Virus record (IMG/VR): IMGVR_UViG_3300025115_000044
Coordinates: 1-29,377 of that record
Strand: one strand, 5' to 3'
Source: a virus
DNA: 29,377 nt
Both the position numbers and the translations under genes were made by a program. Shown piece by piece: positions 3,601-26,447 of the stretch. The stretch's first letter is position 1. The number at the start of each line of letters is the position of its first letter. The notes beneath the pieces were generated by a model that searched no databases, had not been told where the DNA came from, and worked only from the letters and a program-made list of their open reading frames with translations.

Positions 3601-4662
3601 GATGAAAAACTAATGGATAGAGTTTTAATATCTATGGCTCAAAACTATGGTGTCACTCCTGATGGAAATATAATAAGATTAAATAAACCAGGAGTTGATC
3701 CTAAAAAATATAAGTCAATATTAGATTCAGCTGTTTTTAATGAAAAAACACAAGAATATGAAATTAAAGGTTTAAGTAAAGAAGGTCATATATCGTTCCG
3801 TGCAGCTGCTAAAAGGACACTGTCTGGTGTAATAGGAAACATGTCTGCTGAAGAAATAGCCGGATTCGACACTAATCTAGTTATGGGTTTAATGATGCAT
3901 TTTAGAACATGGATGCCAGGTATTGTTAATGAAAGAGTAAGAGGATTAGAATATGATGAAGACATTCAAGCTTTAAGATTAGGTAGATTTAATGCTCTAT
4001 TTTCAGAATACGGATTAAACACAGACGAAAGAGATACAGGTAAAAAAATAGCAGTATTTGTAAAAAAAGCACTTGTCCCATCTATAGCTAAGACAATATT
4101 AGATATTACTACATTTGGTTTAGCACCAAGAATGGGATTACAAAGAGTAAACGAAGCAAGAGCTAAAAGACATTTTGAAAAGTTCTTAATAGAAAATCCA
4201 GATTTAGCAGAAAAAGTAACTTTTGAAGAATATTTACAAGCTAAAGAAGGACAAATAAAAGCTGCATTGGTTGAGCTTAGGATAATACTTGGAACATTGG
4301 CTTTAATTACTTATTTAGGTGGTAAAGACGATGGTGAAAAAGATCCTAGATATTATAATAATATTATAACCAGAAACTTATATAAGATATTAACAAAAAG
4401 TAATTCAGAATTATCTTTTATGTGGAATCCAGTGGAATTTATAAATCTAGTACAAAACCCATTACCTATTACATCATTATTAACTTTAGCTATGAAAACA
4501 TTAAATAATACAATGGATGAAATTAGAGATTTATTATTTGGAGAAAATTCACCACAAGATAGATCCCCTATTATGTATTATGGTATACAGTGGGCTAGAG
4601 GTGGGGTACAACTTGCAAGGTTTTTTGAACTATATGAAAACTATAAAAAGAGTCCATACTAA
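613..4662 (+). CDS. 1349-residue multidomain protein with an N-terminal PD-(D/E)XK nuclease-like domain
   Basis: Residues about 85-200 carry the spacing of a RecB/Cas4-type PD-(D/E)XK nuclease: H94 in GTKIHDVL, E162, D177 in GGTIDVL and D191-Y-K193 in YDYKTKSG. The following 1100 residues are mostly charged and helical, with long predicted coiled stretches, and match no family I can name. A hydrophobic segment near residues 1220-1240 (ELRIILGTLALITYLGG) could be a membrane helix or buried. ATG at 613 follows the previous stop by 11 bases. It is the last + gene before a bidirectional terminator. The size, fusion and position would suit a protein packaged in the virion and delivered with DNA, but that is inference. 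The nuclease call is from motif reading only. Confidence 0.75.
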   Translation: MSCRVTNLTGEQIKNIMANRSIFFPKLINQTAEESVQRLEQIHNLKTLRDDIYFIAQNEIKYRVSERAKRLVGQSEPSISEDNTIKRETGTKIHDVLNKLVDFLYNKKGDINQIKREALSGEYPISSVGFAQLEKLSKSLISQIEATQKKIDPTKQAKILTELFVADPVENLGGTIDVLVVYSNNTADVYDYKTKSGIYGHNYTLNRDEILFTNDLFTSKDYATYNLTMSDYSRILLERYGIREVNRRRLVPIFIANDIKKTDQRKPGSILNKPITKILSGSDVSEHLRQVPIGGESTEFEGLNKLLNKQMSLKEKLLNKLKQGKLTIDERDQINQKIKRINTSIKSVIIDLDIKDMLYTVKNLLEDLGSRINEKPKLEDGSDNPSYISDNELRDYYDELNVYSNMVNESHVYFSELKQVNLAKYTELRNMMRAIAPALTFIMEDVRTERESRTIDLIPNIHKDSKGNIKPFEELNFFEKTFLKISEIKHPVFQAFWKLIQGVQYDMRQQLRQVEKTYHEKETELEKWAKGRGMTLLQAQGMIIDRETGNLFKKIKQEFWDRRNLAFQGKTEEDYKWLTSSYHIRDVDKWQERWNSRYDAKKRQLAAANNNLEDLVGADGKLITSSTTYIKQYERDLDFWVKQTNLLKSKDAWFNNFNYRGWVTIKPEVAKANHTDQYKQIEANKPLKDYYDMWTSYMSEFRELLGINEYSKLPDNFIPNIRKESIQHLTDNGFNLMGSISEKLASFTVREEDIHIGQYDESTGELRRNIPILFINKLKNKQGDVDNSLKSYDLGNSLMLFAKMAYNHSHMEAIEADVLNLKDMIGDPSAEQGGIEATDRMNRKIRGKAQKFLTILGIKTDTYKLFEDFSDYYLYGIKYKEKSLLRKLNTTKAILELKQLRSRTALSYAIIPAGGALLAGRTGLFIESKKSTSFTPEQLRKTEKLLLTNASKYVGISDLFHAYSEDLADKLAFRMSRGGIKKALSERVSYYPLRKVDEKLMDRVLISMAQNYGVTPDGNIIRLNKPGVDPKKYKSILDSAVFNEKTQEYEIKGLSKEGHISFRAAAKRTLSGVIGNMSAEEIAGFDTNLVMGLMMHFRTWMPGIVNERVRGLEYDEDIQALRLGRFNALFSEYGLNTDERDTGKKIAVFVKKALVPSIAKTILDITTFGLAPRMGLQRVNEARAKRHFEKFLIENPDLAEKVTFEEYLQAKEGQIKAALVELRIILGTLALITYLGGKDDGEKDPRYYNNIITRNLYKILTKSNSELSFMWNPVEFINLVQNPLPITSLLTLAMKTLNNTMDEIRDLLFGENSPQDRSPIMYYGIQWARGGVQLARFFELYENYKKSPY

Positions 4663-4748: not shown

Positions 4749-5465
4749 TTAAATATCTAAAGTATGAAATTTTATTTTAGTATCTAAACAATCTAAATAC
4801 GTTATACTTGTATACATATCTTTCTTTACAATTGTAATATCAGGTAAATGGGTATGTCCTACAATTTGGTGCCAATTATTTAACATATCTTTTTTTGTTT
4901 CTTGATAATCAGCCCATAATATTCCTGAATAATTGCTCATTCCTCCCCTATAAAAACTAACCTGAAATATAGAATCCATTTTATATTCAAAACCAATATT
5001 CAGTTTATCTGACAAAGATGCATCTAAAAATTCATCAATTTCAATTTTTTCTGAATACTCAGTTAAGAAATCTTTATACCATTTATTTGTTATTCCTGCA
5101 TGTGTCCAAAGATAACTTAAACCATTTGAATTGTATTGATATGCAGCGTTAAAATATTTTTTATTATCAGCAAATAACTGTCCTAAGTCATGTGTCATTA
5201 AATTTCTGTATCCAGTACATCCATATTTTGCATAACCATAATTACGCATATATTGAACTTCATGATTACCAATTAATAACTCAACAAGATTTGGAAAATC
5301 GTTTTTAAACTGAATAATATTATTTAAATTATGTAATATTTCTACATTAGAATGGGTATAAGAATCAACATAATCACCTAAAAATATTATTTTATCAGTT
5401 GTTTCATTCTTAACTTTTTCCCAATATGATTTACCATGTAAATCACCAACAGTAATTATTCTCAT
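4749..5465 (-). CDS. PPP-type metallophosphoesterase (protein phosphatase-like)
   Basis: Calcineurin-like phosphoesterase of the Ser/Thr protein phosphatase (PPP/ApaH-like) type: GDLHG at 7-11, GDYVD at 30-34, GNHE at 66-69, H122 in THAG and GHTH at 203-206. These are the metal-binding and catalytic positions of the family, which needs two divalent metals such as Mn. It could remove phosphate from proteins or cleave a nucleotide such as Ap4A; sequence alone does not decide. At 238 residues it is the size of lambda-type phage phosphatases. It is the last gene of the - strand unit, one base after the upstream gene's stop, and is followed by the terminator at 4687-4709. A second, unlike phosphoesterase lies at 8508-9134. 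Confidence 0.9.
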   Translation of the reverse strand: MRIITVGDLHGKSYWEKVKNETTDKIIFLGDYVDSYTHSNVEILHNLNNIIQFKNDFPNLVELLIGNHEVQYMRNYGYAKYGCTGYRNLMTHDLGQLFADNKKYFNAAYQYNSNGLSYLWTHAGITNKWYKDFLTEYSEKIEIDEFLDASLSDKLNIGFEYKMDSIFQVSFYRGGMSNYSGILWADYQETKKDMLNNWHQIVGHTHLPDITIVKKDMYTSITYLDCLDTKIKFHTLDI

Positions 5466-6039: not shown

Positions 6040-7930
6040 ACCAATCAAATTTTAATTGTTTATCTTCAATTGATTCAATAATTTTATTACACTTATCAAT
6101 ATAATATCTATAATCTATATTAGTTAAATATTCATCTAATTTAGATTCATCATAATCGTTTAATAGTGTAACTTGCCAATCCAATTCAAGATTATGAAGA
6201 CTACCATCATCTTTCCTTTTTATAAAAGTACCACCTTTTTTAGATATAAAATATCTATTTGTTTTTTGTAATACCTCTATAGTTTTAACATTATCTTTTA
6301 AATAATGTAATTCTGAAGTAAATTGACCACCTATTTTTTGACTTTTACAAAAGTCAAAAATATTTCTATGTGTAAACAAGGTATCTTTTATAGGGATACC
6401 TTTTAAAAAATAATTATTTAAAGCTATTGGAATTATAGATGTATTATATCCTTTTTCTAAATCTTGTATATAATTAAAACATCCTTTTTCTTTAGTTTCT
6501 CCACCATCTTTTAATACAGTATAGTTATTAACATCCTTTCTTACATATTTTAAATATGTAGTAAAAGATAATGTAAACTTAGTGTAATTTTCCCAATCTT
6601 TACATATTTTATGATATTCTTCTTTTCTATCTTTTCTCACCAAAGTTGTTATCCCATCCGTATTGGCAGATATAACATCGAACCCGGCTAATGCTAACTT
6701 TTCTATTAACATTAGTAAAAACATTTGGCCGTTTATAGTTACAGAATAGGCTGCTTTAGTATCATATAACCAGTATTCAGGAAAATTATATAATCCAAAT
6801 ATTGCATTAATAGTAATTTTCATACTATCTGCTGTTATTGGATCTATCATTTTTCCAGTTAATGAGTCTTTTTTTTTGGCTTTTAATCTTAATTCTGTCA
6901 TATCATCCAAAATAGAAAAGAATACTTCATCAACATGTTCTGGTTTAATTTTATATTGTAACATGACTCTAGGGTAATAGGAATCTACATCAGCATCTAT
7001 AATTTCATAATTATCATCTGAATTAAATATAGCTACATCATCCATACTATGTAGTCCACCGAATCCCATTTTATATCCTCTATTTTTATAAATAATAGAA
7101 TAATCCAATTCTGGATCTTTATCTTTTTCTATATATACAATTGTATTGTTAAAATTATTTAACATATTATTAAATAACTCTGTTTCATATTTAACTTTAT
7201 CTGAGATACATTCTTTTAATCTTACTATACCTCGATTAGTTCTTAAATCAACAAATTCATATCTATCTAAGCCTGTTCTTTCTTTATAATAAGTATTTAA
7301 TATTTCTTTTCCTATATCAGTTTTAGAAGCATTTAATATTCTAAGTGGTTTGATTTTAAACTTTTTAGATATATGGAATCTCATATTTAATAAATCTTTT
7401 ACTTTATTATAAAGATTTAATGTTGCTAAAACATCATTTTTATTATAGGCTAATATTTCTTCTAATTTATCTAATGTAACAATTTCATCGTGAGGATGTG
7501 GTAAATCTTTAATTTTGTTAAATCTTAATACGGACGATATATGTTTTAAACTAACTTTCATTTTACCAAAAGCAAGCATTTTCATTAAATCAACTGATTG
7601 TACTACTCCATTCATATATTTACCAATTGTTTCATCTTTCCATAAAGGACCTATTTTTTTCTTTTGATGTCTTATTATTTTTTGAGAAAGATAATATAAT
7701 TCGTAAGTATCTACATATCCTTGAGTAATAATATAATTTAATATAATATCATCATAATATTTACAATTATACCCTATTAAAAGATTATTTTGAACTATAG
7801 AGTGCAGCTTTTCCAAGCCACACTCATTATAGTCCAATTTCCAACACACAATTTCTTCCTTAGTTTGAGGGTTAATAAATATCGCACTAAAGAAGTTTTT
7901 ACCTAGTATTTCAACATCATAAATATACAT
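6032..7930 (-). CDS. Family B DNA polymerase with 3'-5' exonuclease domain
   Basis: Replicative-type DNA polymerase, 632 residues. The exonuclease domain shows ExoI D5/E7, ExoII N55 to D60 and ExoIII Y162..D166. A GFGG motif near 289-292 links to the polymerase domain, with motif A D314-x-x-S317-Y-Y-P, motif B K371-x3-N375-x3-G379 and motif C as N423-T-D425-G. The first aspartate of motif C (usual DTD) is asparagine; the second and more critical one is kept. The length is close to the compact phage PolB group (phi29-like and crAss-like) rather than T4-type enzymes; I see no terminal protein gene nearby. Its ATG overlaps the endolysin stop by one base (TAATG), which suggests translational coupling. 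Confidence 0.93.
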   Translation of the reverse strand: MYIYDVEILGKNFFSAIFINPQTKEEIVCWKLDYNECGLEKLHSIVQNNLLIGYNCKYYDDIILNYIITQGYVDTYELYYLSQKIIRHQKKKIGPLWKDETIGKYMNGVVQSVDLMKMLAFGKMKVSLKHISSVLRFNKIKDLPHPHDEIVTLDKLEEILAYNKNDVLATLNLYNKVKDLLNMRFHISKKFKIKPLRILNASKTDIGKEILNTYYKERTGLDRYEFVDLRTNRGIVRLKECISDKVKYETELFNNMLNNFNNTIVYIEKDKDPELDYSIIYKNRGYKMGFGGLHSMDDVAIFNSDDNYEIIDADVDSYYPRVMLQYKIKPEHVDEVFFSILDDMTELRLKAKKKDSLTGKMIDPITADSMKITINAIFGLYNFPEYWLYDTKAAYSVTINGQMFLLMLIEKLALAGFDVISANTDGITTLVRKDRKEEYHKICKDWENYTKFTLSFTTYLKYVRKDVNNYTVLKDGGETKEKGCFNYIQDLEKGYNTSIIPIALNNYFLKGIPIKDTLFTHRNIFDFCKSQKIGGQFTSELHYLKDNVKTIEVLQKTNRYFISKKGGTFIKRKDDGSLHNLELDWQVTLLNDYDESKLDEYLTNIDYRYYIDKCNKIIESIEDKQLKFDWYV

Positions 7931-8487
7931 TATGTATTATATAAAGATAATTCTACTTTTCTTCTTTCGACTAAGTGCTTACTGGTAATATATCTATTAC
8001 CGTGTTTTATTTTCACCCATCTTAAGAATTCATAATTAATACATTGATCAGAGTTAAGTTTTTCTAATAGTGTACTTCTTTGAAAATTACCTACACCTAT
8101 ATTGTAAACTAAGCTCGCCAAAGCTAAAACTTTATTACAATCATCGTATCTATTTAAATTAGTTAATTTTTCTACATATGATATGCAATTATTAAAATCT
8201 AATTTTAATAACAATTCAGCTTCTTTTTCTGTAATTATAGTAAATTTCTCGTAAGATTTTATAGCATGTCCGTATCCAATAGAATATTGTTTAACATCCC
8301 AATAAGGAGCTAAACTCAATCCTTCAAATTTCTTAATGTTATTTATCACCAATTGATATTGATTATTATAGTCAATATGTTTTAATGTAGTAATAGATAC
8401 ATTATCTCTTACTTCGTGTGAAACTTCTGGTGAATACAAATCTATAGATAAAATAAATATAGTTACAAATACTAAAACTTTTTTCAT
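7930..8487 (-). CDS. GH24/T4-type lysozyme endolysin with N-terminal signal segment
   Basis: Peptidoglycan muramidase. The catalytic region reads KKFEG (E55), then D64 eight residues on, then YSIGYGH with S69 where T4 lysozyme has Thr26. The E-x8-D spacing is canonical, but the D-to-S/T spacing is one residue shorter than usual and Ser replaces Thr; a conservative change. Residues 1-18 (MKK then VLVFVTIFILSI) form a basic start and hydrophobic core, so the enzyme is probably exported by Sec or anchored as a signal-arrest-release endolysin. No holin is recognisable next to it. It lies among replication genes rather than in a lysis cluster, just upstream of the polymerase. Confidence 0.88.
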   Translation of the reverse strand: MKKVLVFVTIFILSIDLYSPEVSHEVRDNVSITTLKHIDYNNQYQLVINNIKKFEGLSLAPYWDVKQYSIGYGHAIKSYEKFTIITEKEAELLLKLDFNNCISYVEKLTNLNRYDDCNKVLALASLVYNIGVGNFQRSTLLEKLNSDQCINYEFLRWVKIKHGNRYITSKHLVERRKVELSLYNT

Positions 8488-8507: not shown

Positions 8508-9134
8508 TTATTTCTTACTATTAATAATTTGTTTTAAATTATAGTAAGATACTGGAGTAAAATCATTACCATCTACTCCTACGTCATATTGGACATTTCT
8601 CAGTCTAGATATTAAAGCTAATTCTGATTTGACATAACTTTCAACTTCTTTTATAACTTCTTCATCTTTTACATCATTTGATATTTCAACTTTACCGTTG
8701 TGTAAATGTCCGTACAACTGCCAGGCACCTCTATGTGATTGATACCAGGAATACATAGGATAATGACACAAAGTAATTCTTTGTCCTCCCTTTATTTCTG
8801 GATCATTAACAATAATATTTAATATTTGATCTACTCTATGAAATTTATTTATTGTTATAGATTTATCATGGTTTCCAGCTATTAGAATTTTTAAACCATT
8901 TAATCTTTCCATAAAATAATTCCATATATCATATCCTCCAAACACTACATCACCAAGTAGAAATACTGTATCGTTTTTATTAATAACACTATTCCAATTG
9001 TCTATAATAGTTTTATTCATTTCTTCAACAGAAATAAAAGGTCTATTACAAAATTTTATAATATTTGAATGATTTAAGTGAAGATCAGAAGTAAACCAAC
9101 AATTAGGGTCTACCACATAAGATTTAAATTTCAT
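8508..9134 (-). CDS. Calcineurin-like metallophosphoesterase
   Basis: Two-metal phosphoesterase of the YfcE/MPE type common in phages: D17-x-H19 in SDLHLNH, G61-D62, GNHD at 87-90, H124 in CHYP and GHLH at 142-145. The substrate is unknown; relatives act on phosphodiesters or nucleotides. The order and wording of motifs differ from the PPP-type enzyme at 4749-5465 (GNHD against GNHE), so the two are separate families rather than a recent duplication. The ATG overlaps the upstream gene's stop (ATGA). Confidence 0.9.
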   Translation of the reverse strand: MKFKSYVVDPNCWFTSDLHLNHSNIIKFCNRPFISVEEMNKTIIDNWNSVINKNDTVFLLGDVVFGGYDIWNYFMERLNGLKILIAGNHDKSITINKFHRVDQILNIIVNDPEIKGGQRITLCHYPMYSWYQSHRGAWQLYGHLHNGKVEISNDVKDEEVIKEVESYVKSELALISRLRNVQYDVGVDGNDFTPVSYYNLKQIINSKK

Positions 9135-14338: not shown

Positions 14339-14349
14339 TAAAATAAAAA

Positions 14350-14370
14350 AAGGGGGGAAAATCCCCCCTT
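14350..14370 (-). terminator. Intrinsic terminator of the amide-bond cassette
   Basis: An 8-bp stem (aagggggg with cccccctt) encloses a 5-base loop. Read on the - strand it is followed by a run of T broken by one A (complement of 14341-14349). It begins eight bases after the stop of the amidoligase gene at 14378 and so closes the long unit entering from the right edge. The stem is much richer in G/C than the surroundings. Confidence 0.9.
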
Positions 14371-14377
14371 CTCTCAT

Positions 14378-15814
14378 CTATTTAATATCAAAATTAACAT
14401 TGTCATTTTTTATTTCTTCTGATCCAGTTGGATCATTTTCAAAACTAAATGACTTTCTCTTATTAATATAATCAAATATGTAAGATTTGAATTTTGAATT
14501 TCTTATTTCTTTATGAAGAATATCTTTAAGTGTAATTCCTTTTAATTCTTCAGGAGTAATATCTGTATTTTTAATTCTATCTGCATATTTAATTATAGAA
14601 GAACATATAACTAACCAATTAATTATTTTAACCATATTAAATGTAGGTACATGAAGCCTAAATTCAATAGTTGGAGTATTACCAAATAACGCCGGTATAA
14701 AATTACACCAATAATATCTGGTATTTACATTCCATTTATGATCCTCATTGGTATCATTCGGATGAGCTGTTCCTAAACCACCATATTTATCTGATTCAGC
14801 TAAAAACATAGCTAAATTATTAAAACATTTATCCTGGTCTATTGAAGCAATAGACCTATTCAGTGGCATATTGTAGTCTTTCTTTCGTTCTTTAAATTTA
14901 GAGGTTTGCGCAGAAAATTCTGGAAACATTGAATAAATTTCCTTCTCAATTACACAACATATAGCAAATAATCTAGCTATGAACTTTTTATAATCTTTTT
15001 TAGGTAAGTTCCCAATATGAAGATGTAAACTCTCCTGATTACTGATTATAGTATAATCTTTGAGATCAGTAGTTGCTTTCTCTAATATTTTAATACCTTC
15101 TATTCCACCCAAAGGAATAGTAGCATATTCTATACCTCGAATACTACCATCTCTTAATGGGACTAACCCATCTTGTAACAGCTTATACCAGGGAATCATT
15201 CCAAGATTTGTTTCAAACTCAAATCCAAAAGTTAAATCACCTATTACATTTAAAGCATAACGAGAAACATTATTCTTAAATGTATCAATTGAAAGATTTA
15301 ATTTGTCATATGCTCCTTTGCTTATATTATTTAATATTTCTTGATCAAACCTCTTAAAATTATAAGGTAAAGCAATACCGTAATTATGGTTATTAAATGC
15401 TATTTTAGGAACAGAATCAGCGTTAGGGTTATAATCCGAAATAGGTACAAAATGTCCTTTAGCTCTATATTCAACAAATAAATTAGATGGAAGAATTCTA
15501 TAGTCCATAACCGGATATAAAGTCTTATTTAGCATTAGTCCTACACTTTTGAACATATCATGTTCAAAATAACCAAATACTAAAGCTTTATCATAAAAAT
15601 CATAACTAACTACACCATATGCTAAAGAAGACTCTGCTTTAAGAATCCACTGTTTTTTGGTATAATTAAATATAATATACCCAGAATTTATTCTATACCA
15701 TTTATCTTTAATTAAGAAACATTGTTTGTTTATTTCATAATACTCTCCTTTTATAAATCTACATTTATTTCTTGAAGCAGTAGTACCGTCAAAAGTTTTA
15801 ACTAATCTATTCAT
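14378..15814 (-). CDS. Amidoligase (glutamine synthetase-like COOH-NH2 ligase, Amidoligase_2 type)
   Basis: A 478-residue ATP-dependent ligase that should join a carboxyl to an amine. The catalytic domain (about 190-420) shows the family signatures: GFEFET (197-202), RDGSIRGIEYATIPL region (221-235), S262-L-H264-L-H266 and IEFRLHVPTFN (383-393), where the acidic residues bind metal and the His and Arg handle ATP phosphates. The first 190 residues are an extra region of strands that I do not recognise and may bind the substrate. It is the last gene of its unit, just before a strong terminator and two bases after the glutamine amidotransferase. It is only distantly related to the ligase at 17668-18540. 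The substrate is unknown. Confidence 0.88.
   Translation of the reverse strand: MNRLVKTFDGTTASRNKCRFIKGEYYEINKQCFLIKDKWYRINSGYIIFNYTKKQWILKAESSLAYGVVSYDFYDKALVFGYFEHDMFKSVGLMLNKTLYPVMDYRILPSNLFVEYRAKGHFVPISDYNPNADSVPKIAFNNHNYGIALPYNFKRFDQEILNNISKGAYDKLNLSIDTFKNNVSRYALNVIGDLTFGFEFETNLGMIPWYKLLQDGLVPLRDGSIRGIEYATIPLGGIEGIKILEKATTDLKDYTIISNQESLHLHIGNLPKKDYKKFIARLFAICCVIEKEIYSMFPEFSAQTSKFKERKKDYNMPLNRSIASIDQDKCFNNLAMFLAESDKYGGLGTAHPNDTNEDHKWNVNTRYYWCNFIPALFGNTPTIEFRLHVPTFNMVKIINWLVICSSIIKYADRIKNTDITPEELKGITLKDILHKEIRNSKFKSYIFDYINKRKSFSFENDPTGSEEIKNDNVNFDIK
15547..15569. repeat. Perfect 10-bp inverted repeat inside the first amidoligase gene
   Basis: ttttgaacat (15547-15556) and atgttcaaaa (15560-15569) are exact reverse complements with a 3-base loop. 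It is within coding sequence for FEHDMFK and lacks a T run after it, so it is probably chance in A/T-rich coding DNA. Confidence 0.55.
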
Positions 15815-15815
15815 A

Positions 15816-17699
15816 TTATTTTAATTTTTCACTAATCCCACTTAATATTGACAAAGCTTCTTCAAAATCATCTAATTCTTTTTTAAAATCATCATCCATA
15901 CCTAACGTACTAATTTCATCTGGTATTTCTCGTAATGATTTATACACATTATCTAATTTCTTAGATATTTCGGTTCGTAATATTGCTACGTTCTCATATT
16001 CTCCCATTTCTTCAAAACTAGTAGAAATAAAACCAGTACCTTCACAATGTTGACAAACCTTAGTATATTTACCATTACCACTAGCTAATTGTACATTAAT
16101 ATACCCCGTTCCTTTACATTTCGGACAATCAATTTCAGTTTCTTTATATTTATCATCAAACTCATCATCACTCTCAAAATAAATTTTAGTATCTTTTGGT
16201 TCATGTGATTCTGAATAATAAAAAGATAGTTTCTTTTTAGCTGTAATAACTACTTCATTTAAAATTTTATCTAATGTATCAAGATACATTGAAATAGTCA
16301 TAAATGAATAATTATCTCTAACTTCTTTTAAAGAACCTTGTCTGAAACTTAATACCTTAGTACAAAGCATTGGTGTAAATAACCCATCATAGTAAACAAA
16401 GGAATTAGTATAGGCTTTAAAGAAATATGTTTCTTTCATCCACCCTGTCATACTATTTTCATCATATCTGGTAAAAGGAAATACCGAATTTCTTTCTATT
16501 ATATCATTTAACATTCTAAAGTTATCCTGAGAATAGAATATAGAAGGTGTAATAATACCTTTTTCTTCACATTTCTTTTCTATTTCTTTAAAACCTTTTT
16601 TGTTTCCAATCAAAATACCATAATAAAAGTATAAGGTATACTTTCTACCTGGGGAAGATTTATCTAAAACATAGCCTAAATTATCAAGAATAAATTTACC
16701 ATGAGCCATGTTACCTCTATACATATAGAATCCTCTATTGTATCTAACACATCTTTCAGTAGCAACAGCAGGATTATCATTTAGTACTGATAACAACCCT
16801 ACCCTATTGATATTTTCACTTACTGTTTTAGAATTACTATAGTTCCTATTATAATAATTATCATCATAATAATCATGATTTCTTCCACTACAATGAGAAT
16901 TTCCAGAAGAAGTATAAGGTATGAAATGTAAATCGGAAGTATTTTTCTTAGTTAGTTTTTCTCTATCATAAAGATCTAATCTCTCAACTTTTTCTCCTGT
17001 AATTTTATATAAATAATTATGATCAAAAGAAATAGGTGTAATATGTTTACTTGTACTTATAAATTTAAGAGATTCATCCATAGAAGAAATATAAATACCT
17101 TTTCCTGGTAAATGTATATAAAATAAAGGACGTTCTTCAGAAGACGGAGATGTATACCATGATTTAGATTTACCATGAAATGCATACATAACATTATCAT
17201 CTCCGGGAAGATGTATTAACAATGCCGCAGATCCTTCATATTCTTTTAATACCTCGAAACCATGATTCAGTATTATTTTAGCAAGTATTATACTATCGCT
17301 TTCCTTTTTAGCTATAGGAATTTTATATTTTTCAGCAAGTTCCTCAATATTAGTAATAGTACCATTATGAGCCTGTATAATTAAAGGATTAGATGTTTCA
17401 TCATCATTCTCATATATAATTACCGGCTGAATATTAGTTACTGAAACTTCTCCAACTGATGCTTTTCTTGTGTGACCTATAATTATAGGTTGTTCTAATT
17501 TAATATGATTATGTAATTCATAATTAAATACTAAATCTCTATATTTTGATTCACTATTAATTCCTTTAATAGTGTTTCTATTATAATATATTCCACAAGA
17601 ATCTCCTCCTCTAGTATCGTTATAATTTCCTAATATATTGAATTTTATACTATCAAAATCTTTTGGTTTATTTCCTATCCATCCAAATATTCCGCACAT
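15816..17699 (-). CDS. Class II glutamine amidotransferase with long extension and DnaJ-type zinc finger
   Basis: An N-terminal nucleophile glutaminase domain (1 to about 235) starts MCGIFGW, so Cys2 is the nucleophile and the start at 17699 is fixed. R30-GGDSCG, GHTRKASVG (75-83), AHNGTITN (110-117) and D135 match the glutamine pocket of GlmS-type enzymes. It releases ammonia from glutamine, probably for the neighbouring ligases. A Ser/Asn/Tyr/Asp-rich linker (264-296) leads to an uncharacterised domain, then a zinc finger at 525-559 with two CxxCxGxG repeats as in DnaJ, and a helical tail. GlmS synthase (SIS) domains are absent. The gene overlaps the end of the upstream ligase by 32 bases. 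The extension is unlike any amidotransferase I know. Confidence 0.9.
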   Translation of the reverse strand: MCGIFGWIGNKPKDFDSIKFNILGNYNDTRGGDSCGIYYNRNTIKGINSESKYRDLVFNYELHNHIKLEQPIIIGHTRKASVGEVSVTNIQPVIIYENDDETSNPLIIQAHNGTITNIEELAEKYKIPIAKKESDSIILAKIILNHGFEVLKEYEGSAALLIHLPGDDNVMYAFHGKSKSWYTSPSSEERPLFYIHLPGKGIYISSMDESLKFISTSKHITPISFDHNYLYKITGEKVERLDLYDREKLTKKNTSDLHFIPYTSSGNSHCSGRNHDYYDDNYYNRNYSNSKTVSENINRVGLLSVLNDNPAVATERCVRYNRGFYMYRGNMAHGKFILDNLGYVLDKSSPGRKYTLYFYYGILIGNKKGFKEIEKKCEEKGIITPSIFYSQDNFRMLNDIIERNSVFPFTRYDENSMTGWMKETYFFKAYTNSFVYYDGLFTPMLCTKVLSFRQGSLKEVRDNYSFMTISMYLDTLDKILNEVVITAKKKLSFYYSESHEPKDTKIYFESDDEFDDKYKETEIDCPKCKGTGYINVQLASGNGKYTKVCQHCEGTGFISTSFEEMGEYENVAILRTEISKKLDNVYKSLREIPDEISTLGMDDDFKKELDDFEEALSILSGISEKLK

Positions 17700-18540
17700 A
17701 ATCTAATTTTTTAATATTAAACAATTGTTCTTCAAAAGAAATATTTAATTCATCATAAATTGATGAATCAAATAGAAATTCACCATTAGAATTTGTTTTA
17801 AGAGTAGGTTTTTCCATATACAATAAAGAATATAAATTTTCTTCTTTATTAACATAATCTAATGCTTTATTAGTCTGTCTAATTACCCAAAGTAGATATT
17901 CATTATTTGAAAAATAACTACCTAACGAACGACATTCTAATCCGTAAGGGGTATCTCTATATTGACCTACTCCTCCATAATTTCCAAATCTTCTAATATC
18001 AAATTGTTCAATATAAGAAGGGATTACAACAAATAAATCAAAAGCTCTTGCTATCAATTTATTCATAGTTAATTGACTAAGAGAACATTCATCATCTCTA
18101 TCATAACCAATATGTACATGAAATCCTGCTGTTCTATAATTTACAGAAGATAAATCATTTGCTTTATGTATATCATCATCCCATGCGTTAAGATAAGGAT
18201 CACATCCAAAAAGTAATGCTTCAGGATCTGTTAAATAAATAGGATCTAATTCCATACAATCACTTGAAATTATTTCAAGACTTTCATACTTATCTTTTAA
18301 GTATTTAACTATTCTTGATTTTAATTCTATTATTGAATGTATAAATCCTGATTCTGTAGTAGTTACTGGTACATTTCCTTCAACTAAAATATTATCTCTT
18401 AATATTTTGAAATCATCTCCTAGCTCATAGGGACTATCTTTAACACCTTCAACTAAAAATGTAGATGGAACTACTTTTTCAATATCCTTATTATATATAA
18501 AAAATTCAGGATCACTACCGTAAGTTATATTTTTAATCAT
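17668..18540 (-). CDS. phiEco32-type COOH-NH2 ligase (amidoligase-type 2)
   Basis: A 290-residue ligase of the phage COOH-NH2 ligase type 2 family. Seen motifs: YGSDPEFFI (7-15), RDNILVEGN (48-56), FGCDPYLNAW (111-120), AGFHVHIGYD (138-147) and GLECRSLGSYF (200-210). D10/E12, E54, H141/H143 and E202/R204 are the likely metal and phosphate residues of the glutamine synthetase-like fold. The family is known from phages where it sits with ATP-grasp and glutamine amidotransferase genes, the same company as here. Its stop lies 32 bases inside the amidotransferase gene, and its ATG overlaps the upstream stop. Substrate unknown. Confidence 0.88.
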   Translation of the reverse strand: MIKNITYGSDPEFFIYNKDIEKVVPSTFLVEGVKDSPYELGDDFKILRDNILVEGNVPVTTTESGFIHSIIELKSRIVKYLKDKYESLEIISSDCMELDPIYLTDPEALLFGCDPYLNAWDDDIHKANDLSSVNYRTAGFHVHIGYDRDDECSLSQLTMNKLIARAFDLFVVIPSYIEQFDIRRFGNYGGVGQYRDTPYGLECRSLGSYFSNNEYLLWVIRQTNKALDYVNKEENLYSLLYMEKPTLKTNSNGEFLFDSSIYDELNISFEEQLFNIKKLDYVRNIWMDRK

Positions 18541-19502
18541 ATTTCACTTTTTAATAAATCTTTAACTTTTATTTCACGTATTTTTGTACCACCTGGAGTA
18601 TACATACTAAAAGATTTTTCTAATATTTTATCAACGTCATCAAATATTAAATTATTAGTATGACTGAAGTAAGAGTATTTAATTTCATATTTACACAGTT
18701 TGGAATATACTTCCATACCTTGTTCATATCTACTAATAAATTCTTTTAGTTCGTCTGTACTTACATTAGCGTTAGATAAAAATACATATTTAGCATTTAA
18801 CTCTACAGAAGAATCTTCAAATAAATCTCCAGTTATTTTTATTTTGTTATGGAATATTATATTTTTATTACCAAATACTGTGTATAAATTATTATCCTTT
18901 GCTAACTGTTTTAAATATTGAGATTTTTCAGGAACAAATACTATATCATCTTCTTTTAAAGTATAGGCCACTAATCCTCTACTTACTTGTGTATAATTAA
19001 ATGATAGAGCTATACCTAAAATAATTCTCAAATGATGATCGTTAATTTCTTCATATATAGACATAAATTTTCTATATAAATGTAAAATAATCTTAGCTAT
19101 TATAATTCCATCACCAGTTTGCCACATATATCTTATTAATGTATGACAAGCAACAAAATGTTTATTACTAAGTATTTCTTTACAGTTTATCTCGTAGAAT
19201 AATACTTTATCTGAAAAGGCATCTATTCTTTCAATTCCTATATCATCACGAACTTTAGTACGATCTATATCAACTAAACTATATGTAATATCAAACATCT
19301 TAGATATAATAGAAACATAATCTTTAACATCGTTGATTGAATTATTGAATATATCTAATGTTTGGGTTGTATCTATTACACAATAATTTTGTTTAGTTCT
19401 TGCTCCCATTAATGTTTTTCCTTGTGATTGGCAACAACCTACCGCATATAAAACATAATTGTTACGTTCTACTAAACCAAAATAAGATTGATTATCTTTC
19501 AT
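18537..19502 (-). CDS. Unknown protein embedded in the amide-bond cassette
   Basis: A 321-residue protein that I do not recognise. The N-terminus has a Cys pair and small-residue stretch (YAVGCCQSQGKTLMGAR, 14-30) which loosely recalls a nucleotide loop but does not fit Walker A. The middle (about 120-180) is helical, with several His, Cys and Trp residues; there is no membrane helix. It overlaps the ATP-grasp gene by 11 bases upstream and the type 2 ligase by 4 bases downstream, so it is translationally locked into the cassette. It could be a substrate-binding or accessory subunit of the ligases; that is inference from position only. Confidence 0.8.
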   Translation of the reverse strand: MKDNQSYFGLVERNNYVLYAVGCCQSQGKTLMGARTKQNYCVIDTTQTLDIFNNSINDVKDYVSIISKMFDITYSLVDIDRTKVRDDIGIERIDAFSDKVLFYEINCKEILSNKHFVACHTLIRYMWQTGDGIIIAKIILHLYRKFMSIYEEINDHHLRIILGIALSFNYTQVSRGLVAYTLKEDDIVFVPEKSQYLKQLAKDNNLYTVFGNKNIIFHNKIKITGDLFEDSSVELNAKYVFLSNANVSTDELKEFISRYEQGMEVYSKLCKYEIKYSYFSHTNNLIFDDVDKILEKSFSMYTPGGTKIREIKVKDLLKSEI

Positions 19503-20253
19503 TTTTACTATGTTTGTTAATTAGTATTTTAGTTATTTCGTTTCTGTATGCTATAATCCCTACTTCTCCTAATTGAGGTGCAGAATTAACTTCACACACT
19601 ATAAAATTAGGATTAGTTCTAGATTGAACTCTTATATCTACAGCTCCAATATCTAATCCAACAGATCTTACAGCTACTATTGCTGCATTTTCTAATTCTG
19701 ACCAATTATTAGGTTTTGAAAATAATTCATGTTCTTCATTTACCCAATTACAATTACTAGAATTAAAAAACCACCTTTCGGTGACATCTGATTTTCTTAA
19801 TTTTCTCCATGCTAAAAACGCATGGTCTCTTGTAGCATGTATTCTATATTCCCTAGCATAATTATAGAATCTTTCTATAAAAAATCTATTATTATCATGA
19901 GTTTTTATAAAATTACGAAGTTCTTCCTCATTATTTATAAGTACCATACCTCTACCTTTAAATCCTACTATAGCTTTTCCAACAAGAGGAAATTCGTTAA
20001 AAGGAACAGGATCAACTAAAGATTTCCACTCAGCTTGAGGAACATCGTATTTAGAGAAACATTCCTTCATTCTAAGCTTGTCTCTACTATTTTCGATAGA
20101 TTCTATACTATTACATTCAATAACCCCTCTAATGTCTTTAAAACAGCTTATAAGAGGTGTTCTAGAGCCTAATCTAACTATTGATTTAAAGGGTAAATCA
20201 ATACCACGCAATGGACCAGCACTAGGATTTTTAGTTCTTATTTGAGTTTTCAT
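19492..20253 (-). CDS. ATP-grasp ligase, RimK-like
   Basis: A 253-residue ATP-grasp enzyme that should activate a carboxyl as acyl phosphate and ligate it to an amine. RLGSRTP (27-33) is the N-terminal motif seen in phage members; GFKGRGM (97-103) is the glycine-rich loop; E127, E136/R138 and D205 line the ATP site and E220-V-N222 gives the metal-binding ExN. RimK-like relatives add glutamate to protein tails or make small peptides. It stands between the small zinc-knuckle gene and the 321-residue gene with short overlaps on both sides, the third ligase of the cassette. Confidence 0.9.
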   Translation of the reverse strand: MKTQIRTKNPSAGPLRGIDLPFKSIVRLGSRTPLISCFKDIRGVIECNSIESIENSRDKLRMKECFSKYDVPQAEWKSLVDPVPFNEFPLVGKAIVGFKGRGMVLINNEEELRNFIKTHDNNRFFIERFYNYAREYRIHATRDHAFLAWRKLRKSDVTERWFFNSSNCNWVNEEHELFSKPNNWSELENAAIVAVRSVGLDIGAVDIRVQSRTNPNFIVCEVNSAPQLGEVGIIAYRNEITKILINKHSKNER

Positions 20254-20489
20254 AATAATTTTAATTCTTTAAGACGATGAAGAAATATAGGATGAACTAC
20301 ATCCCCCAAGATTGAATATTGTTTTCTAGAAGGACAACGGGTAGAAGTATGTAAACCATAAGGATATCCACAATTTTTACATACTGTACCATAATATGTA
20401 GAATTTTCTCCAGAACCTCTTGTCTTATAATAGATACCTCCTTCTTGATATCTTGGATGAGGGTGTGTATAACCAGCTGATTTAAACAT
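20250..20489 (-). CDS. Small zinc-knuckle-like protein of the cassette
   Basis: A 79-residue protein with a possible zinc site C-x2-C-x7-H-x4-C (VCKNCGYPYGLHTSTRCP). The N-terminal half is rich in Tyr, Gly, His and Pro and probably flexible. The ATG is two bases after the upstream stop and the TGA overlaps the ATP-grasp ATG, so it is translated with the cassette. It might be a carrier or acceptor for the ligases, or a scaffold; its C-terminus (KELKLL) shows no obvious tag. Function unknown. Confidence 0.72.
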   Translation of the reverse strand: MFKSAGYTHPHPRYQEGGIYYKTRGSGENSTYYGTVCKNCGYPYGLHTSTRCPSRKQYSILGDVVHPIFLHRLKELKLL

Positions 20490-20491
20490 AA

Positions 20492-20914
20492 CTAATATTT
20501 TGATAATCTATGTTCTTTCCAATTAATAACACCATCATTATTAACAGGTACTGTACCTCTCTTTGTATCTGTAAGATTATAATCTTTAGGATTAAGTACA
20601 TATATTTCTGATAAACCATACGGTGTTTCAATAGGACATTTGTTATAAAAATTAACAGGATTATCCTGAGATACAAAACCTTCTAATCTTTCGATTCGTT
20701 TATATATTTCATCGGTAACCTGATATGTTTCTACATATATTTTGTTTTTAACACTCTCGTCTACTATTAAACCAGGAAATCCACCAAAAGATACCATATG
20801 ACAAGGTATTTCAAGTACATCTGTACCAAGTAGCTTTGAATGTTCGTTATTCAATAACCATGACCAATTTCCCATACCTGACAACAAGCTTCCATAAACT
20901 GTTACTAATTTCAT
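20492..20914 (-). CDS. Gamma-glutamylcyclotransferase-like (AIG2/GGCT fold) protein
   Basis: A 140-residue GGCT-fold enzyme: VYGSLLSGMGN (6-16) forms the glycine-rich substrate loop, GGFPGL (44-49) the second contact, and VETYQVTDE leads to RIERLEGF (73-80), where E78 is the likely catalytic acid. Family members release 5-oxoproline from gamma-glutamyl amines or dipeptides. In this cassette it may remove or edit gamma-glutamyl groups put on by the ligases. It is the first gene of the cassette, five bases downstream of the primase. Confidence 0.88.
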   Translation of the reverse strand: MKLVTVYGSLLSGMGNWSWLLNNEHSKLLGTDVLEIPCHMVSFGGFPGLIVDESVKNKIYVETYQVTDEIYKRIERLEGFVSQDNPVNFYNKCPIETPYGLSEIYVLNPKDYNLTDTKRGTVPVNNDGVINWKEHRLSKY

Positions 20915-20918
20915 AATT

Positions 20919-21890
20919 TCAAATTTTTAATTTATAATTTAATAAATATTCTATTAATTTTACTGCATCTTCTAAAGAATAATTCTTAACAAAATCAGAT
21001 ATATCTTTGGATTTGTATTCTTCTGGTATATTTATGTAAGGTATTTTAAATTTAGATGAATATTTTATATTCATCTTTATACCTGTTTGATCAGAATCCA
21101 TAAATACTATCTTATTTTCAAATCTGTCATTTTGTTTATGATAGTAATTTTCAAATAGAAAAGCTGCCTCAGTTGTTGGAGCTATAGCTATATATCCTAA
21201 TTCATAAAGCACCATAACATCTTTAAGAGAAGATGTTATTATTAGAAGATCTCCCTTATAAGGTAACATTCCTTCTCCTTGTACTATTTTACCACCATTA
21301 CTAAACCATTTAAATTTTGAAAATGGTTGATAAATCTTTCTCCTAAATATACCATCTTCCCAATAATAATCATAAGAATAAGAGTATTTATCTGAAATAA
21401 AAAGATTATTATTTATTGTAAAGTGAGAAATTGGAGATACGTTGAATAAGTTCAACGTATCTAAACTTATTTTATAATCTCTAACCCAATAATCATAATC
21501 GTAATCTTTAAATTCTCTTTTTTTTATTTTTAAAATTGTTTTATCTTTTGGAGTTATGTTAATATTACTTCTAGAAATAATAGTATTTGGACTTTTCCCA
21601 TTAATAATATTAAAATCGTTTGCTATTTTCATCACAGCTTGTGGAAAAGATATATTGTACAGTTCTGCTACAAAATCTATAGCTCTATAAGAACCTTTTC
21701 CAAAATCTTTAAATAAAAGATCACCATCATAATAAATAATAAATGCACTTGGATTTGGATCATTCCTTAAAGGAGAATGAAAAGATTTACCAATACTTTC
21801 AAAACCATGACAATATCTAGAAAATATATCATAAGAAGATATTTTTTTTAATAATTCTTCTTTAGATAAAAATTTATTAATACTATACAT
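20919..21890 (-). CDS. DnaG-like primase with degenerate zinc and Toprim motifs
   Basis: The true start is the ATG at 21890 (MYSINKFLS), giving 323 residues; an in-frame ATG at 21977 would translate the upstream tRNA-like gene. Residues about 20-90 resemble a DnaG zinc domain (SPLRNDPNPSAF, LFKDFG, IDFVAELYNISFPQAV) but the zinc cysteines are missing. The C-terminal part is Toprim-like: FMDSDQTGIKM keeps DxDxxG, whereas the first motif reads LIITSSLKDVMVL, without the usual glutamate. It would make RNA primers for the polymerase, together with the DnaB-like helicase of the same unit. The loss of both signature sites is shared with some phage primases and Twinkle-like proteins. Confidence 0.83.
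   Translation of the reverse strand: MYSINKFLSKEELLKKISSYDIFSRYCHGFESIGKSFHSPLRNDPNPSAFIIYYDGDLLFKDFGKGSYRAIDFVAELYNISFPQAVMKIANDFNIINGKSPNTIISRSNINITPKDKTILKIKKREFKDYDYDYWVRDYKISLDTLNLFNVSPISHFTINNNLFISDKYSYSYDYYWEDGIFRRKIYQPFSKFKWFSNGGKIVQGEGMLPYKGDLLIITSSLKDVMVLYELGYIAIAPTTEAAFLFENYYHKQNDRFENKIVFMDSDQTGIKMNIKYSSKFKIPYINIPEEYKSKDISDFVKNYSLEDAVKLIEYLLNYKLKI
21435..21462. repeat. Perfect 12-bp inverted repeat inside the primase gene
   Basis: agatacgttgaa (21435-21446) and ttcaacgtatct (21451-21462) are exact reverse complements around a 4-base loop. In the - strand transcript it would form a stable hairpin within codons for LDTLNLFNVS. No T run follows, so it is not a standard terminator; it may be chance, a processing site or a translation pause. 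Confidence 0.7.
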
Positions 21891-21904
21891 ACTCTTAAAA
21901 TTAG

Positions 21905-21979
21905 ACGGGGTAGTGGGATTTGAACCCACATCTCCTTTCCGTTTCGTACTCGGCGACTTACCAATTAGTCCATACACCG
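21905..21979 (-). tRNA. tRNA-like gene of uncertain isotype, weak anticodon arm
   Basis: A clear T arm (GTGGG TTCAAAT CCCAC), a D arm (GACT AATTGGTA AGTC) and an acceptor of 6 of 7 pairs (CGGTGTA with TACCCCG, one T/C mismatch) make a tRNA-like fold of 75 bases; CCA is not encoded. The anticodon arm pairs only by CCG and CGG. Taking the T of GTACGAA as U33 gives anticodon ACG (Arg), but this is not secure and the region between the D and T arms is about two bases too long. It lies between SSB and primase in the same direction, so it would need cutting out of the operon transcript. It may be functional but divergent, or decaying. Confidence 0.72.
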
Positions 21980-25648: not shown

Positions 25649-25804
25649 TTAACCAAATTTACTGCAAAAATACTCAAATAATTTGAGATCTCCAAAAGTT
25701 TTTTCAGAAATTATACCATAAGTTTCAATCTTTTTGGATTCGCTTTCAGTTTCATGATCAGCTTCTATTTCTTTTTTTGCTACTTTCTTATTTAATGATT
25801 TCAT
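25649..25804 (-). CDS. Small 51-residue protein
   Basis: A short ORF with ATG at 25804 and TAA at 25649-25651. The start overlaps the end of the C26 hydrolase by 17 bases and the stop is one base from the next ATG, so it exactly fills a gap that would otherwise be gene-free. The peptide is charged (MKSLNKKVAKKEIEAD at the start, Glu- and Lys-rich middle) with a C-terminal LFEYFCSKFG. Function unknown. Confidence 0.65.
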   Translation of the reverse strand: MKSLNKKVAKKEIEADHETESESKKIETYGIISEKTFGDLKLFEYFCSKFG

Positions 25805-26447
25805 AACGTTTTAATTTATCAAGTATCCACCTGTCAATCGTAGAATCAAACATATCTTCAGGATGAAACTGTACTGCAAATATAGGTTTATTTTGAATTC
25901 TTATAGCTTCAATATGACTCTTAAAACTACTATGAGTAGCTTCTACTATAACAAGATTCTTTCTTCCTTCTTCAGTCATCATTACTGACTGATGATGTCT
26001 GCTATTTACTTTATGTTTTTGCATGTGATTATCTACAATAGAATGTACTGTTTTACTTCTATCATATTTATCATTTGCTTCATGATTCATATCTTGGAAT
26101 AACTCACATTCATAATGTACAGCTAATGTCTGCATTCCTCTACATATACCGAATATAGGAGTATTCATTTCAATATATTCTGGCAAATAATATGTATCAA
26201 ACGCTTCTAAAAATACATTTGGGTTTCCTACTGAAAAATCAGGCCATTGGCCATATCTTGTAGGATTTACATCAGATCCACCTGGTAATAAAATCATGTC
26301 TAAATCCTCCCTTATAGCCATTTCTGGACTTAAGATGTGTATTTCACCATTAAGAAAAGACTGTATATATTTACCATATGATACAGTTATCCCAAATGAA
26401 TTTTCTCCAACCATCCAACCTGGTATACCTATTTTCCTTCTACTCAT
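25788..26447 (-). CDS. C26-type gamma-glutamyl hydrolase (class I amidotransferase fold)
   Basis: A 219-residue hydrolase of the PuuD/peptidase C26 family. LLPGGSDVNP (53-62) is the oxyanion strand, C102 in GICRGMQ the nucleophile, SRHHQS (149-154) a substrate contact, and H195 and E197 in VQFHPE complete the triad. Relatives cleave gamma-glutamyl bonds, for instance gamma-glutamyl-GABA or folate polyglutamate. No synthetase domain is attached, so it is hydrolytic or gives ammonia to a separate partner. It lies in the same unit as the amidoligase cassette, about 5 kb upstream, and probably belongs to the same chemistry. Confidence 0.9.
   Translation of the reverse strand: MSRRKIGIPGWMVGENSFGITVSYGKYIQSFLNGEIHILSPEMAIREDLDMILLPGGSDVNPTRYGQWPDFSVGNPNVFLEAFDTYYLPEYIEMNTPIFGICRGMQTLAVHYECELFQDMNHEANDKYDRSKTVHSIVDNHMQKHKVNSRHHQSVMMTEEGRKNLVIVEATHSSFKSHIEAIRIQNKPIFAVQFHPEDMFDSTIDRWILDKLKRYEIIK

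Follow-up and report, generated by a model that had tools for sequence, protein, structure and literature searches.

The DNA analysed here (the window) is a 29.4 kb virus record, IMG/VR record IMGVR_UViG_3300025115_000044, positions 1 to 29,377. From 20914 down to 14378 it carries seven minus-strand open reading frames (ORFs), five of them with clear enzyme domains, that follow one another head to tail up to a strong terminator. An earlier note on this DNA had described these ORFs as one seven-gene series for amide or gamma-glutamyl bond chemistry. The layout it gave is borne out: the ORFs lie where it placed them, and in order from the GGCT gene to the Amidoligase_2 gene they are joined by a gap of 2 bases, overlaps of 4, 11, 4 and 32 bases and a gap of 1 base, ending at a terminator at 14374–14345. 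The COOH-NH2 ligase, the second amidoligase and the ATP-grasp ligase share one operon, together with GGCT and the class II enzyme. Terminator-like sites number 12, compared with 2.3 expected in shuffles. The cassette, and a displaced gene that we consider with it, are as follows.

20492..20914, minus strand: GGCT/GGACT-like gamma-glutamyl cyclotransferase, 140 residues (Pfam GGACT, 9e-10; phrog_2520)
20250..20489, minus strand: 79-residue ORF with the pattern C37-x2-C40-x6-H47-x4-C52 (zf-CCHC_6, E=0.03, sub-threshold)
19492..20253, minus strand: RimK-like ATP-grasp carboxylate-amine ligase, 253 residues (Pfam RimK, 9e-8; phrog_2599, 2e-27)
18537..19502, minus strand: 321-residue protein with N-terminal GCC and LIRYMW motif, no family match
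17668..18540, minus strand: phiEco32-type COOH-NH2 ligase type 2, 290 residues (PF14395, 2.5e-8; phrog_3815, 1e-40)
15816..17699, minus strand: class II (N-terminal nucleophile, Ntn) glutamine amidotransferase, 627 residues, with a long C-terminal extension (GATase_6, 3e-10)
14378..15814, minus strand: Amidoligase_2, an N-terminal beta-rich domain followed by a ligase of the glutamine synthetase (GS) fold, 478 residues (PF12224, 2.6e-5; phrog_2443, 2e-21)
14345..14374, minus strand: intrinsic terminator ending the cassette, a 12-pair stem and T-run
25788..26447, minus strand: PuuD-like class I amidotransferase / gamma-glutamyl hydrolase, 219 residues (Peptidase_C26, PF07722, 2.6e-25)

Domains were called with Pfam and PHROGs, and residue conservation was assessed over 106–143 homologues per family. 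Across these alignments the catalytic residues are near-invariant, and all are present in the window copies. They comprise Y7-G8-L10 and E78 in GGCT (106 homologues); K59, E135, K151, D206, E221 and N223 in the ATP-grasp ligase; the nucleophile C2 with R78, N112, G113 and D135 in the class II amidotransferase; and two invariant sets, E12, E54, H141, R184, R195, E202 and R204 in the COOH-NH2 ligase, which is GS/GCS-like by published classification, and E199, E201, E229, H264, H266, E384 and R386 in Amidoligase_2. The ligase active sites, for which degeneracy had been raised as a concern, are intact.

The nearest solved relatives of the class II amidotransferase by profile are the glutaminase domains of PurF and GlmS in the PDB, and CxxC pairs in its C-terminal part occur in just 20 of 140 homologues. 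The three ligases of the earlier note hold. Its listing of the class II enzyme as one of two glutamyl-cleaving enzymes is not supported; the second candidate for that role is the PuuD-like protein. Amidoligase_2 has a GS fold according to a confident AlphaFold2 model (predicted local distance difference test, pLDDT, 91.5), in which the GS-fold domain spans residues ~169–461 and aligns with GS-family enzymes at Z ~11 over ~225 residues with a root-mean-square deviation of ~4. The matches are glutamine synthetases, naphthylamine GS, the gamma-glutamylmethylamide synthetase GmaS and YbdK, a superfamily-level likeness that is silent on substrate. Profiles of the COOH-NH2 ligase and of the amidoligase gave no sequence match in the PDB.

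The PuuD-like protein matches PuuD (PDB 6vtv) by profile at 1e-12 and has the triad C102, H195 and E197 as well as an HHQ motif, H151-H152-Q153. Its best phage match, 41% identical, is encoded within the cassette of Leptolyngbya phage Lbo-JY46. Homologues form two groups, one usually beside the COOH-NH2 ligase and the other mostly beside GGCT, ATP-grasp or primase, and the window gene belongs to the GGCT/ATP-grasp-linked group. The gene, which the earlier note had overlooked, encodes a further cassette enzyme that normally lies within the cassette and is here displaced ~5 kb upstream. Six loci (L017, L027, L035, L043, L051 and L013) have two PuuD-like genes each, one by GGCT/ATP-grasp and one by the COOH-NH2 ligase, which suggests two hydrolases for two different amides. 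A protein of 191–239 residues between the COOH-NH2 ligase and the amidoligase in phiEco32-type cassettes was considered as a diverged PuuD-like enzyme, an assignment that profile comparison does not support.

The earlier note took the system to be undescribed. In fact a seven-gene 'peptidoglycan modification cassette' with the same gene set has been published for PSA-HP1, with nine further phages listed: phiRIO-1, phiEco32, 7-11, PA11, tf, MR299-2, LUZ24, PaP3 and CW02 (PMC5498523; also described in PMC11945000). Comparative genomics brought it to light in 2009, and PMC11945000 and PMC10580990 repeat the ideas of superinfection exclusion and a wall target, resting on Hardies 2013 and Iyer 2009. 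In PSA-HP1 the cassette is transcribed immediately on infection (PMC7082346). The window resembles the cassette of PSA-HP1, phiRIO-1 and the others in having GGCT, ATP-grasp, COOH-NH2 ligase, amidoligase and glutamine amidotransferase genes in the replication region. It differs in its Crassvirales-type order (primase-GGCT-ATP-grasp-X-COOH-NH2 ligase-class II amidotransferase-amidoligase), in the displacement of the PuuD-like gene 5 kb upstream, and in the extra 321-residue and 79-residue proteins. Phages phi14:2 (NC_021806) and cr108_1 (NC_055878) have the same order as the window at ~30–40% protein identity, with primase upstream and RusA or endonuclease, exonuclease and ribonucleotide reductase (RNR) downstream. 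They differ in content, as whole-record searches confirm for the two enzymes concerned: phi14:2 has no PuuD-like gene and no homologue of the 321-residue protein, and cr108_1 has no GGCT and has two proteins of a family remotely related to the 321-residue protein.

Scans of IMG/VR yielded ~190 loci, which were then searched with profiles built in this analysis. Single-sequence scans of viral contigs for the COOH-NH2 ligase and the 321-residue protein returned no match, whereas alignment-based scans succeeded. The main set comprises 112 non-redundant phage loci with at least five of the six core genes, and in all of them the core genes are co-directional. The set recurs in many unrelated phages; annotated relatives (phi14:2, cr108_1, Lbo-JY46, Bas87, QDWS535, BUCT695 and Bjorn) span crAss-like, phiEco32-type, Aeromonas, Alcaligenes, Pseudomonas and cyanobacterial phages. 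In these phages the genes stay together on one strand but their order is shuffled. That the genes act as a unit, as had been proposed, is supported by their joint recurrence on one strand in unrelated phages, the near-invariant catalytic residues and the confident GS-fold model.

Because the 112-locus set was picked for having the genes, figures anchored on a single gene are less biased. Within 8 kb on both sides of Amidoligase_2 (39 loci), GGCT was found in 38, ATP-grasp in 36, the COOH-NH2 ligase and the class II enzyme in 37 each, and the PuuD-like enzyme in 33. All 43 loci anchored on the COOH-NH2 ligase have the class II enzyme and Amidoligase_2, with PuuD-like in 39, ATP-grasp in 35 and GGCT in 22. 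None of the six genes was found in whole-record searches of Rudgehvirus and cr127_1, the Crassvirales with the best-scoring polymerase matches, and the first 50 kb of Mycobacteriophage Marvin, cited elsewhere for an amidoligase/amidotransferase, gave no match. A cellular origin was also considered: the ligase occurs in nine contigs of bacterial metagenome-assembled genomes (MAGs), but their context and Pfam content revealed no host pathway. In two of the bacterial-binned contigs, L199 (Geobacteraceae MAG) and L202 (Stahlbacteria MAG), the COOH-NH2 ligase is directly followed by a PuuD-like gene, with GGCT ~1.5 kb beyond; these may be either contigs of phages or a cellular version.

The core genes fall into three couples. 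In the 112 loci, the class II amidotransferase and Amidoligase_2 are adjacent in 104 of 108 cases, compared with 39 expected in shuffled orders; the PuuD-like hydrolase and the COOH-NH2 ligase in 78 of 96 (40 expected); and GGCT and ATP-grasp in 64 of 89 (30 expected). Absences also coincide, of ATP-grasp with GGCT (p=6e-5) and of the COOH-NH2 ligase with PuuD-like (p=5e-5), p-values that are optimistic given that the loci are related. The second of these is partly displacement and not loss, because among four loci in which the ligase is apparently missing near ATP-grasp (L071, L072, L079 and L082) all three records that were searched whole carry it elsewhere. By whole-record search, seven large contigs of 160–353 kb (L127, L128, L133, L135, L145, L154 and L138) have neither ATP-grasp nor GGCT and keep the COOH-NH2 ligase, PuuD-like, class II and Amidoligase_2 genes; they may represent few independent events. 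The earlier note had raised the possibility that the genes are independently present or absent among close relatives; in cassette phages the genes for the COOH-NH2 ligase, the class II amidotransferase and Amidoligase_2 remain together, whereas GGCT, ATP-grasp and PuuD-like vary, partly as couples. An accessory family of 132–284 residues (median 154) is found around GGCT and ATP-grasp in 22 loci (for example L170:7221-7697 and L116:6531-6998) and was not seen in the window.

The two remaining ORFs of the series differ in standing. The 79-residue ORF had been counted as a zinc-knuckle member of the cassette, a claim we do not uphold: its zf-CCHC score of 14.6 bits lies below the curated Pfam cut-off of 22, and no homologue occurs among 195 loci, including the nearest relatives of the window, L118 and L065. 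It is in the operon, yet its sequence distribution indicates that it is not a conserved cassette member. The 321-residue protein has homologues at the same position in L118 and L065. It matched neither a Pfam family above chance nor a PHROG, and tblastn against phages found nothing. By profile comparison, cassette clusters 22, 0 and 7 rank first to third of ~40 (69%, 29% and 5%, compared with at most 2.8% for the rest), and the usual place of these clusters is between the ATP-grasp gene and that for either the COOH-NH2 ligase or the PuuD-like enzyme. The protein is likely to be remotely homologous to the three clusters and is probably a member of an optional cassette family that evolves fast. 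Its structural model is of low confidence (pLDDT 64), with no Foldseek match under E 0.8, VIA-align Z at most 5 and no PDB match, and we therefore claim no fold. A hand-made motif for the superfamily is enriched near cassettes (28 versus 1); we do not use it as proof, because it was written after the members had been seen and covers 21 of the 112 loci.

GS-fold and ATP-grasp enzymes join a carboxyl to an amine using ATP, C26/PuuD enzymes hydrolyse gamma-glutamyl amides, GGCT releases pyroglutamate, and class II domains release ammonia from glutamine. From these activities we infer the reaction directions and the transfer of ammonia, and propose a glutamine-fed ligase core that works on one substrate together with two glutamyl couples of the add-and-remove kind. 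In the first couple, the class II amidotransferase would hydrolyse glutamine and pass ammonia to the GS-fold Amidoligase_2, which would amidate or ligate a carboxyl. In the second, the COOH-NH2 ligase would make a gamma-glutamyl-type amide that the PuuD-like hydrolase could remove. In the third, the ATP-grasp ligase would add a glutamyl-type group that GGCT could remove as pyroglutamate. The net result would be a stepwise build-protect-deprotect route on a single amine or peptide substrate, early in infection. We consider it probable that the window holds a crAss-like phage copy of the published cassette with this three-couple chemistry, a judgement that does not extend to the substrate. The earlier note's observation is sound and its interpretation partly supported: the system is real and conserved, and of an already known kind. 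What is new is that the PuuD-like member is displaced, that the enzymes pair up as couples with a constant core, that the 79-residue ORF does not count as a member and that crAss-like contigs carry the system widely.

Several points weigh against this reading. Our literature searches found no report of a product, substrate or enzyme activity for the cassette in any phage, and the peptidoglycan assignment rests on gene-context prediction. The cassette usually lies amid replication genes and not lysis or envelope genes, and in the window the PuuD-like gene is ~5 kb away from it. The GGCT and PuuD-like steps are not always needed, because they are absent from cr108_1 and phi14:2, respectively. 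Finally, mirror-tree correlations among the four cassette genes tested (0.51–0.87) are no higher than those with primase (0.71–0.85), and co-inheritance therefore gives no independent proof of one pathway.

With regard to substrate, a peptidoglycan stem-peptide precursor, as published, is our leading guess, and a tentative one. Close behind it is the possibility that the enzymes make a soluble small molecule or short peptide with removable gamma-glutamyl protection, for counter-defence or host takeover, leaving the wall untouched. Parallels for such chemistry are known: butirosin side-chain assembly couples the ATP-grasp ligase BtrJ to the GGCT-fold deprotecting enzyme BtrG, and the Puu gamma-glutamylputrescine pathway couples a GS-fold ligase (PuuA) to a C26-type gamma-glutamyl hydrolase (PuuD). 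The ATP-grasp/GGCT and COOH-NH2 ligase/PuuD-like couples fit this add-then-remove logic, and no envelope enzyme was recognised in the window cassette or in ten accessory cassette proteins tested. There are differences as well. Compared with butirosin, the likeness is at superfamily level and the window is without carrier protein or aminoglycoside genes; compared with the Puu pathway, the window COOH-NH2 ligase has no sequence match among solved structures, PuuA-like or other, two further ligases are present, and no PuuB/PuuC-like oxidase or dehydrogenase was recognised in the 29 kb window, which is a fragment. More generally, the conserved cassette genes include no known carrier protein, transporter or tailoring enzyme. 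A two-hybrid screen reportedly detected contact between LUZ24 gp9 and the gamma-glutamylpolyamine synthetase SpuB, an unconfirmed observation that would favour a soluble compound (PMC4635203). We can also imagine, as a more speculative and rather improbable variant, a modular gamma-glutamyl assembly line in which a constant core with plug-in ATP-grasp/GGCT and PuuD-like parts makes a phage-specific soluble amide compound, either a natural product or a counter-defence metabolite, and the 321-residue family serves as a dedicated carrier or scaffold.

A role in modifying host or phage proteins by glutamylation or peptide tagging, in the manner of RimK or Pup ligase, is less likely than either leading candidate and in our view doubtful. 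It would suit the match of the ATP-grasp ligase to phrog_2599, which is named S6 glutaminyl transferase, and the presence of the Pup ligase PafA among GS-fold ligases; yet the ATP-grasp/GGCT couple is dispensable in the seven large phages, and among the conserved cassette proteins no small tag was found. Hypermodification of DNA, with the ligases coupling a modified base to amino acids or amines, is unlikely, because 11 of 16 restriction enzymes cut the DNA of U17, a LUZ24-like cassette phage (PMC11945000). Although the cassette adjoins primase, helicase, RusA and exonuclease genes, no enzyme providing a carboxyl- or hydroxymethyl-base handle was recognised in the window, itself a fragment. 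A phage amide ligase that acts on carboxymethylcytosine DNA, CmoY, does exist, but it is of the asparagine-synthetase type, not GS-fold or ATP-grasp, and requires CmoA and CmoX (PMC12783734), which were not seen in the window.

If the wall is indeed the target, phages would use the cassette for exclusion or lysis; otherwise its product would be a phage-made metabolite. It is found in phages of many hosts, including the culturable phages LUZ24, phiEco32 relatives such as Bas87, and phi14:2, and the reduced phages with four of the six genes offer a natural minimal version.

The window looks like a distant crAss-like phage on the strength of its gene order and polymerase sequence. Its genes run helicase-Sak4-x-x-primase-cassette-RusA-exonuclease-x-RNR, similar to the arrangement in phi14:2 and in many contigs from the environment, and its polymerase is 27–33% identical to those of crAss-like phages, with nearly all of the best matches listed being Crassvirales or crAss-like. 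The nearest contigs, L118 and L065, have COOH-NH2 ligases 54% and 52% identical to that of the window, and a nucleotide search of the cassette region against phage records gave no match. No structural gene is present in the 29 kb fragment. The cassette sits on one strand amid genes for replication and DNA metabolism, with RusA, exonuclease and RNR downstream and primase flanking it upstream:

20919..21890, minus strand: primase (phrog_12622, 3e-36), start inferred downstream of tRNA-Arg

The primase gene ends 4 bases before the GGCT start, and primase is the nearest recognised upstream neighbour of the cassette in 64 of the 112 loci. A tRNA-Arg(ACG) gene lies directly upstream of it at 21904–21979 (minus strand); the primase start is more likely to be near 21890, because the GTG start of the 352-residue ORF falls within the tRNA. 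On the opposite strand, positions 613–4662 (plus) encode a 1349-residue protein that matches no PHROG and gives just a weak hint of PD-(D/E)XK. The window also contains two separate calcineurin-like phosphoesterase genes, at 4749–5465 and 8508–9134 (minus strand), and a phage lysozyme gene at 7930–8487 lies between them amid replication genes.

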